Of a stretch of DNA of 64,000 nucleotides, positions 1,961-60,913 are shown piece by piece (positions within the stretch are counted from its first letter, which is position 1; the number at the start of each line of letters is the position of its first letter). The position numbers and the translations under genes were made by a program. The DNA lies in the NCBI GenBank assembly GCA_013360695.1, contig JABWBC010000003.1, forward strand, positions 1 through 64,000, in the 5' to 3' direction. The notes under the pieces are model-generated. The model ran no database searches. It saw only the letters and a list, made by a program, of their open reading frames with translations, and was not told the origin of the DNA. Origin of the DNA: Phycisphaerales bacterium. GTDB taxonomy: Bacteria > Planctomycetota > Phycisphaerae > Phycisphaerales > UBA1924.

Positions 1961-2040
1961 GGGCGAGGCGGCGAGAGAGCGGGGCGGGGAAGAAGCGGTC
2001 GAGTGGCGGAGTGGTCGAGTGGCAACGTGAAAGACGGAAG
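1961..2040. repeat. Degenerate 8-bp tandem array (octamer family, locus A)
   Basis: ...aagcggtc gagtggcg gagtggtc gagtggca acgtgaaa gacggaag; 8-bp register. Confidence 0.75.
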
Positions 2041-5998: not shown

Positions 5999-6062
5999 AA
6001 ATGGCCAAATCAGGAAGCGGCAGAGCGGCAGAGCGGCAGAGTGGTGAAGTGGTGAAGTGGTC
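5999..6062. repeat. Degenerate 8-bp tandem array, 8 units (locus C)
   Basis: aaatggcc aaatcagg aagcggca gagcggca gagcggca gagtggtg aagtggtg aagtggtc. Confidence 0.9.
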
Positions 6063-6095
6063 GTTATTCACTTGATGGGTGCTCGTCGATACGGC

Positions 6096-6151
6096 GCTGT
6101 CTCGCTGTCTTCTTTGGCAATTTGGCCAATTGGTGATTTGGCGACTTGCCC
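6096..6151. repeat. Degenerate 8-bp tandem array, inverse orientation (locus D)
   Basis: gctgtctc gctgtctt ctttggca atttggcc aattggtg atttggcg acttgccc. Confidence 0.85.
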
Positions 6152-6312
6152 CGCACTCGCTGTCTCACGTTTGGGACGAGTTCTGTCCGCCGCCTGCCTA
6201 GAATGTTGAAGAGTCCGTGACCATGTCGGTCCGCGGCCCTGCCGTTCATCCCGCCCATTCGCCCAGCGGCCCGGGCACAGCTTCGGCCGCCGCGATCGGA
6301 GTGTTTTCAAGC

Positions 6313-21114: not shown

Positions 21115-23262
21115 CTACAGCCCATACTCAACCCATCGCGAGCTGACCTTGGCACGCATCTCTTCGCTCATGCACAAGAGCGGCGGGAACTCCCGCACCG
21201 GCTGCCCGTTCGCGTCATCACCCGGAAGTTTCGGCGTCGCGTCAAACGCCACCCGACGCCCGCACACGCTGAGATTCCGATCGCGATCCGGTGCGTAGTT
21301 CGCCATCCAGTGGAACATCGCGCGGTCGAGGTTGGACACGTCCGCCTCCGCGCCCACGACGATCGTGTAACGCGGCAGGGCGCACTCCTCCGTCAAGCCG
21401 CCGATCGCCTTGATGATCCGCACGCCGTCGCCCGCCTCGCGCTTCTCGGCTCGGATCACGAGCCAGTGGCCGCCGAGTTCTTCGGGCACGCGCGCGTCAA
21501 GCACTCCCGCGATGGCGCGAATGCGAGTCTCGGTGGCGCGGGCCGCGGCGTCCGTGGCCGCCGGGATCGGGCCGGACCTGCACAACTCCGCGCCGAGCCC
21601 TGTCACGCTGCGGTGCGTCTCGGCGGGAATGGTCTTGCGCGTCGCGTCGAGCCCCAGCTTGCCGCTCACGCCGAGGAAGGGCGCCGCGTGATCGAGAATG
21701 TCGACCGGCCCGCGGACGAGCTCGGAATCTCGCGCGGGCTCGCAATGCTCGCCCACGGCCTTGAGTACCGCGTTCGGATCGTGAACGTCGACATCCTCAT
21801 CAACCACCACGATCGTCTTGGTCCAGCTCATCTGGCCTGCGCCCCAGATCGCGTGCATGACGCGCCGCGCGTGGAGCGGATACTCCTTCTTGATCTTCAG
21901 GAATGCCGCGTTGTGGAACGCGCCGAACATCGGCAGGTCGTAGTCGATGATGTCGGGCACGATGGTGCGGAGCAAGGGCAGGAACAATCGCTCCGTCGCC
22001 TTGCCCAGGAAGTAATCCTCCTGCGGCGGGAGGCCCACGATCGTCGTCGGATACACCGGGTTCCTGCGGTGAGTGATCGCGGTGACCTCGAGCAGCGGGT
22101 AGCGATCGGGGAGCGAGTAGAAGCCCGTGTGATCGCCGAACGGGCCCTCGAAGACCGCGCCCTCGCCCAGATCACATGTGTCTTTGGCTTCCCTGCCGTC
22201 TTTCGCGAACTGGCGATTTCGTGATTTGGCAATTTCCTTGGGATCCCAGCCGATCAGGCCGGCGCGATGATCGACATACCCCTCGATCACGATCTCGGAG
22301 TTCGCGGGCACGTCGATGGGCACCGTCTTGCAGCGGACCAGCGGGATCGCCCCGCGATTGAGGAAGCCCGCGAGCAAGAGCTCGCTGATCCCGGGCGGCA
22401 TCGGCGCGGTGGCGGCGTAGGGCAGCACGCTCTCGCCGCCCAGCGCGATCGCGACCGGCATCGGCCTGCCGCGTGCCTTCCACGATCGCCAGTGACGCGC
22501 GCCGTCGTGGTGCATGTGCCAGTGCATGGCGGCGTGGCGACGCCCGAGCAACTGCACGCGGTACATGCCGATGTTCCGGCTCGGCGGAGCGGGGTTGCCC
22601 TCGTCGTCTGCGTGGATCGTGTGAATCCCGCCCAGCGTGATGTAGCGCCCGCGAAAATCTCGTTCCCATTCCGGGCCTGAGCTGATCCCCGCGATCCCGT
22701 CGTTGATCCCCGCGGGATAGCCGAGGCTCGCGTAGTCGCCGTCCATGGGCCAGCAGCGGAGCAGGGGCAAGCGCGTGAGGTCCACGTCCGCGCCCGTGCG
22801 AACCACCTCTTGGCACAGGCCGCTCTTGACTTTCTTGGGCGGGATCTTCGCCAGTTCGAGCAATTCCGGGAGCATCTGCAGCTTGGCGAGCAGCGTGGGA
22901 GGCGGCTCGGGCTTGATGAGTTTCCCGATCCGCTCGGCGAGGCCCTCAAGCCCGGCAAGACTGGTCGTGCCTTCCTCGCAGCCGAGCGCCATCTCGACGC
23001 GCCGGTAGCTTCCCCACGCGTTGATCAGGACCGGGAAGTCCGAGCCGGCGACGTTTTCAAAGAGGAGGGCCGAACCGCCCAGGCGGCACTGACGCGGGTC
23101 GGTGCGCTGCGAGCCCTTGGAGCCCGCCGAGGGTGCGGCGGACTTGCTCACGCGATCGGCGATCTCCGAGATTTCGAGCACCGGCGAGACCGGGGCCTTG
23201 ATCCGCCGGAGTTCTCCGGCACGATCCAGGGCGTTGATGAAGTCCTGCGTCGTCTCGTACAT
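21115..23262 (-). CDS. ubiD: UbiD family decarboxylase with insertions
   Basis: LLFENVAGSDFPVLINAWGSYRRVEMALG, EIVIEGYVD...EGPFGDHTGFYSLPDRYPLLEVTAITHRRNPVYPTTIVGLPPQEDYFLGKATERLFLP. Confidence 0.92.
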   Translation of the reverse strand: MYETTQDFINALDRAGELRRIKAPVSPVLEISEIADRVSKSAAPSAGSKGSQRTDPRQCRLGGSALLFENVAGSDFPVLINAWGSYRRVEMALGCEEGTTSLAGLEGLAERIGKLIKPEPPPTLLAKLQMLPELLELAKIPPKKVKSGLCQEVVRTGADVDLTRLPLLRCWPMDGDYASLGYPAGINDGIAGISSGPEWERDFRGRYITLGGIHTIHADDEGNPAPPSRNIGMYRVQLLGRRHAAMHWHMHHDGARHWRSWKARGRPMPVAIALGGESVLPYAATAPMPPGISELLLAGFLNRGAIPLVRCKTVPIDVPANSEIVIEGYVDHRAGLIGWDPKEIAKSRNRQFAKDGREAKDTCDLGEGAVFEGPFGDHTGFYSLPDRYPLLEVTAITHRRNPVYPTTIVGLPPQEDYFLGKATERLFLPLLRTIVPDIIDYDLPMFGAFHNAAFLKIKKEYPLHARRVMHAIWGAGQMSWTKTIVVVDEDVDVHDPNAVLKAVGEHCEPARDSELVRGPVDILDHAAPFLGVSGKLGLDATRKTIPAETHRSVTGLGAELCRSGPIPAATDAAARATETRIRAIAGVLDARVPEELGGHWLVIRAEKREAGDGVRIIKAIGGLTEECALPRYTIVVGAEADVSNLDRAMFHWMANYAPDRDRNLSVCGRRVAFDATPKLPGDDANGQPVREFPPLLCMSEEMRAKVSSRWVEYGL
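22179..22242. repeat. Degenerate 8-bp array inside ubiD coding sequence (locus E)
   Basis: gccgtctt tcgcgaac tggcgatt tcgtgatt tggcaatt tccttggg; encodes KEIAKSRNRQFAKDGREAKDTCD. Confidence 0.65.
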
Positions 23263-28079: not shown

Positions 28080-28111
28080 TTCACTTTGCCACTCCGCCGC
28101 TTTGCCACTTC
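28080..28111. repeat. Degenerate 8-bp tandem array (locus F)
   Basis: ttcacttt gccactcc gccgcttt gccacttc, immediately upstream of trxB. Confidence 0.8.
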
Positions 28112-60233: not shown

Positions 60234-60539
60234 CTAATCCTTCACTCCCTCAACTCCCACGACCGTGTACTTCTGGAGGGCCTTCTCCAGGTCCACGCCG
60301 TTGATGTTGGCGAGGGTGGTGAGCCAGGCGATGACGTCGGCGAATTCCTCGTCGAGGTTGGCGCGTTCCTCGGGGCTGGGTCGCTTGCCCGGCGCGTTGT
60401 TGTGGAGCGCGGTCGCCAGTTCGCCGACCTCTTCCATCAGCCACATGAACGTGCCGGGTGTGCCCCGGGCCGAATCGGTCTTGTAGTAGCGGTCGTGGAT
60501 GAGTTTCTGAAACGCGGCGAAGGTGATGGGCTGCGACAT
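60234..60539 (-). CDS. MazG-like nucleotide pyrophosphohydrolase
   Basis: MSQPITFAAFQKLIHDRYYKTDSARGTPGTFMWLMEEVGELATALHN...NLDEEFADVIAWLTTLANINGVDLEKAL. Confidence 0.88.
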   Translation of the reverse strand: MSQPITFAAFQKLIHDRYYKTDSARGTPGTFMWLMEEVGELATALHNNAPGKRPSPEERANLDEEFADVIAWLTTLANINGVDLEKALQKYTVVGVEGVKD

Positions 60540-60553
60540 GAAGCAAGCGTAGG

Positions 60554-60617
60554 AAAGCGATCCAGCGATCCAGCGACACGGCGACACGGCGACACAGCGA
60601 GACAGGGAGAACGGGAG
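60554..60617. repeat. Degenerate 8-bp tandem array, 8 units (locus H)
   Basis: aaagcgat ccagcgat ccagcgac acggcgac acggcgac acagcgag acagggag aacgggag. Confidence 0.9.
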
Positions 60618-60913
60618 TTGGAACGTCTTGGGCAAGCGGTCCAGAGGACGGCCCGTTCGCTGGCAAGTCATTCGCTCGAGCCCGGCGAGCGAGTCAGGCG
60701 GCACTGCAGGATCGGGCAGGCTTCTCCGTGCCGCTTCTCCGGATCGCCCCGTCCGTCCATGTTCGGCGTTTACTCCCCTGCCTCGCTGGCTTGCTGTGTC
60801 ACTGACCCCTTTGGATTTGCCATTCGCCCATTTGTCTCCCCCTTCCTCCCGGCTAACATTCCCTCCCTTGCCCGGACGCGGTTTTCCTCCGCCCCGGCAC
60901 TTTGAGAGCGACC

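Follow-up and report, generated by a model that had tools for sequence, protein, structure and literature searches.

How did a stretch of octamer-like DNA come to lie in frame within a conserved enzyme gene? The question was raised by ubiD in the window (the whole stretch of DNA that was analysed, 64,000 nucleotides long), in which the initial annotation had noticed 8-bp units resembling those of an intergenic array at 6096-6151. The extra UbiD segment is read here, with a probability of about 0.8, as an old, decaying repeat copy of ~59 bp, made up of a CCAAAT-dialect octamer array and a GA-rich tail, which entered a loop tolerant of indels, with the frame kept, in the ancestor of the genus. 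It belongs to a wider class of octamer repeats of Phycisphaerales and relatives, the complete palindromes of which also enter essential genes. The features of the window are collected in Table 1.

Table 1. Positions of ubiD, its insert and the intergenic octamer arrays in the window.
Feature	Positions	Strand	Evidence or remark
ubiD, 715 aa, intact	21115..23262	minus	Pfam UbiD/UbiD_C/UbiD_N (PF01977, PF20695, PF20696)
In-frame insert, decayed dispersed-repeat copy (octamer array and GA-rich tail)	~22177..22235	minus	UbiD residues ~341-365
Octamer-array portion of the insert, AAATTGCC AAATCACG AAATCGCC AGTTCGCG AAA	22201..22235	minus	~4 degenerate units
GA-rich tail of the insert, GACGGCAGGGAAGCCAAAGACACA	22177..22200	minus	pairwise alignment with L073
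Intergenic copy of the ubiD-insert element: CCAAAT-dialect array, then AGACAGCG units	6095..6157	minus	top-scoring array of the window
Neighbouring octamer array, AGCGGCAG and AGTGGTGA dialect	6016..6061	minus	Tandem Repeats Finder; pattern match
CCACTC-dialect octamer array, intergenic	1993..2030	minus	pattern match; gene calls
CCACTC-dialect octamer array, intergenic	28081..28110	plus	pattern match with 1-2 mismatches; gene calls

The UbiD linker and its insert

The protein of the window was found to have E. coli UbiD (5m1d/2idb) as its top Foldseek match, and no second copy of the gene was found in the genome. The linker, defined as the span between IEGYV and EGPFGDH and compared across thirty relatives, was found to contain 41 residues in the window species and 40, 41 and 46 residues in three congeners, whereas insert-free relatives contained 22-29 residues (median 24), in agreement with the short linker expected of the family. 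The excess over this median is ~17 residues and not the about 38 that had been annotated, since HRAGLIGWDP and LGEGAVF belong to the ordinary family linker, the frame of which (HEAG.IG.DPR..LGPGAVF) was conserved across UbiD relatives. The annotated interval of 22179-22242 was near right and was corrected to that of Table 1. The octamer part was found to encode the peptide cycle IAKSPNRQ, and insert-spanning peptides would include IAKS.NRQIAK in UbiD and HSATLPLGHSATS in the ValS of the relative G013.

All four species of the window genus were found to contain the insert, each with the frame kept, and it was absent from most relatives; it is thus genus-wide and not strain-specific, which points to an old, decaying insertion. 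In the codon view the octamer part was traceable in all four species, which were found to retain an ancestral GAAATCGCCAAATCGC...GCCAAATCGCCAAA pattern, decayed differently in each. The protein identity of the insert with the congeners was 19/25, 13/25 and 7/31, against 95, 92 and 91% in the rest of UbiD, and the insert is the most rapidly changing part of the protein. The insert carriers of the window genus formed one clade in the UbiD tree (100/100), and insert-free species were interspersed among the other carriers on weakly supported joining branches, so that the tree is compatible with a common as well as with a separate origin for the insert of the window genus and that of G013.

The mean AlphaFold pLDDT was 83.8 for the window UbiD and 81.8 for the G013 UbiD, and values below 50 over at least 3 residues were found only at residues 347-363 and 340-373, respectively, that is, at the inserts. 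The insert of the window is therefore predicted to be disordered within an otherwise confident model, in line with the suggestion that it is tolerated in a loop. The presence of the segment in frame in all four congeneric species would also fit a functional, selected extension of the genus in which the octamer appearance is secondary. This reading is quite improbable in view of the low identity of the insert, its predicted disorder and the presence of unrelated inserts at the same place of UbiD in other genera.

Octamer register and dispersed copies

An 8-column octamer matrix was trained on 37 units, all of them from CCAAAT arrays that lie between genes at other loci. When both strands of the window (127,938 positions) were scored, the ubiD insert, which was found in the CCAAATCG octamer register, ranked second, behind 6096-6151 itself, and its score was matched by 0/1000 dinucleotide shuffles in each of the four congeneric species; the likeness noticed in the initial annotation was thereby borne out. 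A pattern search of the window with at most 2 mismatches gave 12 matches (0.52 expected), one of which was located at 22208-22229 in ubiD. The degeneracy of the ubiD array could be taken to favour a chance likeness of coding DNA or an assembly artefact, but this reading is hardly credible, as both the shuffles and the presence of the insert in four separately assembled genomes contradict it.

The homology was found to continue beyond the array. The whole insert, including its tail, aligned to the intergenic loci L073 and L101 and to 6096-6151 of the window, the tail matching the GAAGA...GAGACAGCG tail of the intergenic copies; the ubiD insert of G003 gave alignment scores of 58 and 61 against L073 and L101, with shuffle maxima of 33 and 32. 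Further copies of the 6095-6157 element were found at G000:C77 (87%), C59 (86%) and G003:C188 (79%), G000 being the genome of the window (89% complete). Since the alignment also covers the GA-rich tail beyond the array, a dispersed element that was inserted is favoured over local replication slippage, by which an 8-bp stretch native to ubiD would have grown where it stood, without any DNA having moved. Slippage surely acts on the arrays, given their tandem units, the number of which (3-8) varies between loci, and the UbiD linker varies in length by up to 6 residues within the genus. As the source of the insert it is nevertheless unlikely: the ubiD units share their sequence with a genome-wide family, the insert-free relatives L005 and L007 scored at shuffle level at the ubiD site and so contained no octamer-like seed, and slippage does not make two-armed palindromes such as that of the relatives' UbiD insert. 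The annotated idea of a dispersed array captured in frame was thus supported, and neither of the two outcomes named in the annotation as refuting it (conservation in distant UbiD homologues with unrelated DNA; a chance register on shuffling) was observed. Of the two processes suggested there, expansion into genes is less supported than movement, as sequence shared with a genome-wide family is not expected from local slippage.

The three-unit octamer pattern was found 53 times in G000, with 1 match of the reversed control, and 121, 106 and 82 times in G003, G013 and G001, respectively. It was abundant in G001, G003, G013, G044, G045, G048 and G056 and absent from most other family members; G040 and G052 contained many matches but were left out of the array-rich genomes because their reversed controls matched too. 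The arrays of the window's genome were nearly all intergenic, and most copies were single arrays without a second arm. In the comparison of filled and empty sites at 6016-6150, G003 was also found to contain the array and the region of G002 was unalignable. A further 8-bp tandem array (AGCGATCC / CGGCGACA / CAGCGAGA) was observed at 60556-60610, overlapping the called ORF 60234-60704; it is related to the AGACAGCG units that adjoin the CCAAAT array at 6095-6110.

Palindromic forms in relatives and the UbiD loop

The complete octamer palindrome of G013 and G045 was found to contain two inverted arms of 3-5 octamers each around a short loop, AAGTGG(CRRAGTGG)n - short loop - (CCACTYNG)nCCACTT, with a length of about 90-125 bp; the G013 palindromes measured 71-125 bp between the pattern edges. 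Three short-loop palindromes of G045 contained a common loop sequence. The G013 loops were mostly unalignable, an outcome not expected if a single master element had simply been copied and pasted.

Complete in-frame palindromes were found in G013 in UbiD, error-prone DNA polymerase (two), ValS (three), a histidine kinase and DusB; in CarB and Mfd one octamer arm each was recognised. G045 contained in-frame palindromes in CarB (two), RluD and a Snf2 helicase, and PurL of G009 contained a one-arm array. No second close copy of ValS or CarB was found in the palindrome-bearing genomes (G013, G045), and the PDB alignments of ValS, CarB and RluD were interrupted at the inserts and resumed within a few template residues. 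At residues ~560-620 of the ValS in L149 (G013:C11:37000-43000) a further repetitive insert, EAPARFVEAPARSAEAPTRFVEAAARSAEAPTRS, was observed, of a type unlike the octamer palindromes.

In a scan of GTDB genomes 19 stretches were found to contain the strict palindrome. Most came from Phycisphaerales and other planctomycete MAGs, from which it is mainly known, and the rest from individual MAGs with the labels Prevotella, Elusimicrobia and Anaerolineae. More in-frame cases, named by eye from the flanking protein, were found in CarB (two genomes, the same loop as in G013), PurL and a squalene-hopene cyclase-like gene. The strict pattern was present in 1/392 sampled genomes, a count from a sample without G013 and with a pattern that misses other dialects, and a phylum-wide distribution was set aside for this reason. 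In CarB of L140, L240 and L249 (three genomes) the octamer palindrome was observed in one loop, after ...VVERL and before GLIVQFGGQTPLNLA. In the MAGs with the labels Prevotella, Elusimicrobia and Anaerolineae (L235, L241, L242, L246) the octamer palindromes, with the same AGTGG core, were intergenic; these labels may reflect misbinning.

Folding of the UbiD linker DNA gave hairpins in three other genera, G013 (z -6.6), G015 (z -7.2) and G033 (z -5.5), each with 0/200 shuffles, and the three inserts were of three different sequences. No hairpin was found on folding the linker DNA of the window (z 0.2), nor in the window genus, and a palindromic ancestor is therefore not required for its ubiD copy. 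The UbiD of G015 (L012) was observed to contain an in-frame inverted pair of a 26-bp arm, GGTGGGCCGCCCCTCCGGGGCGGCAG, that recurs at dozens of sites across the G015 genome (78 BLAST matches, both strands counted); this insert looks like an inverted REP dimer.

Tolerance, mechanism and known repeat systems

As 8 and 3 are coprime, an octamer array encodes the same 8-residue cycle in all frames. The units free of stops in all six frames amounted to 94% in G013, 84% in G000 and 76% in G045, against 70% of random octamers (GC 0.66), percentages that are descriptive only as the units are not independent. An 8-bp unit that is not divisible by three, of which most variants are stop-free in six frames, would make insertion into genes unusually harmless, and in-frame insertions may well be neutral. 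The chances appear evenly balanced for the broader proposal that Phycisphaerales carry previously undescribed, protein-coding mobile palindromes of 8-bp tandem units, stop-free in every frame by unit length and composition, and that several palindromic repeats, unrelated to one another, have landed repeatedly in certain loops (UbiD, CarB).

As for the UbiD insert, a dispersed array would have been copied in frame into the loop of the genus ancestor and would persist because the frame was kept and the loop is disordered and tolerant. The octamer copies presumably move as DNA; as a working guess, dispersal could be non-autonomous via a single-stranded hairpin intermediate, with selection filtering the insertions and leaving frame-preserving events. 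Neither target duplication nor a mobilising enzyme was found for the octamer elements. A Y1/RAYT transposase as the mover was rejected, as the counts of PF01797 do not follow the arrays: they were 0 in G000, with 53 array matches in a genome 89% complete, and 9-10 in the array-free G032, G039 and G043. Template correction of the arms within the hairpin was also rejected, as facing variable positions of G013 were no more alike (0.653) than those of shuffled arms (0.700 +/- 0.029). Viral spread was rejected as the strict palindrome pattern was found 0 times in viral contigs.

Rickettsia palindromic elements (RPEs) are dispersed, non-autonomous palindromes of ~100-150 bp that interrupt a wide range of unrelated genes, often essential ones, without loss of frame and add a translated peptide to the product (Ogata et al. 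2000, 2002, as cited in PMC10969869). The octamer elements resemble them in their in-frame position within unrelated conserved genes (UbiD of the window; CarB, ValS, RluD, DusB, Mfd and error-prone polymerase of relatives) and differ in lineage, apparently in sequence, and in arms built of degenerate 8-bp tandem units. The long hairpin of RPEs was found in the G013 UbiD insert and not in that of the window, which at ~59 bp is also shorter than the RPE range; the G013 palindromes measured 71-125 bp. The relatives' palindromes thus work like RPEs, the window copy being at best a one-armed or decayed representative.

REPs and REPINs are palindromic repeats that are scattered as single units or inverted dimers and in some cases lie within ORFs, DNA repair genes among them (Di Nocera et al. 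2013, PMC3733652; PMC3116915). A REP is one fixed palindrome of 20-40 bp with a GTAG or CGTC end, whereas the arms of the octamer elements are tandem octamers, their arrays show no link to Y1 transposase counts, and no GTAG/CGTC tag was noticed among the listed G013 and G045 elements. MITEs have terminal inverted repeats and a target-site duplication; inverted arms are present in the relatives' elements, and no direct duplication was seen in the listed flanks. The TAACTGA heptamers of Beggiatoaceae contain stops in three forward frames and lie at gene edges (PMC4679880), whereas the octamers are mostly stop-free and are found mid-gene. PARCEL elements are palindromic coding repeats, sporadic among genomes, that form 25-residue tandem domains in proteins without assigned function (PMC2996958); the octamer elements share the palindromic coding character but are single inserts in conserved enzymes. 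Short tandem repeats also include the cyanobacterial STRR heptamers, which, like the TAACTGA family, resemble the octamers in having short, degenerate units in tandem, most of them dispersed in intergenic DNA. By these comparisons the octamer elements appear to be a separate, octamer-built version of the RPE and intragenic-REP principle, of which no report from planctomycetes was found in the literature searched, which reached few subscription papers.

Most descriptions of in-frame palindromes in essential genes have so far concerned Rickettsia and a small number of genomes rich in REPs, and in the Phycisphaerales version a single essential tRNA synthetase (ValS) contains as many as three copies. 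The availability of filled and empty homologues allows questions on element movement, on protein tolerance and on the seeding of new protein segments to be asked, and the repeated insertion at the same UbiD and CarB loops makes such tolerance sites directly testable. Outside coding sequence, some intergenic arm pairs of G045 (L107, L108) were observed to flank a terminator-like hairpin, filling the space between a stop codon and the next gene.
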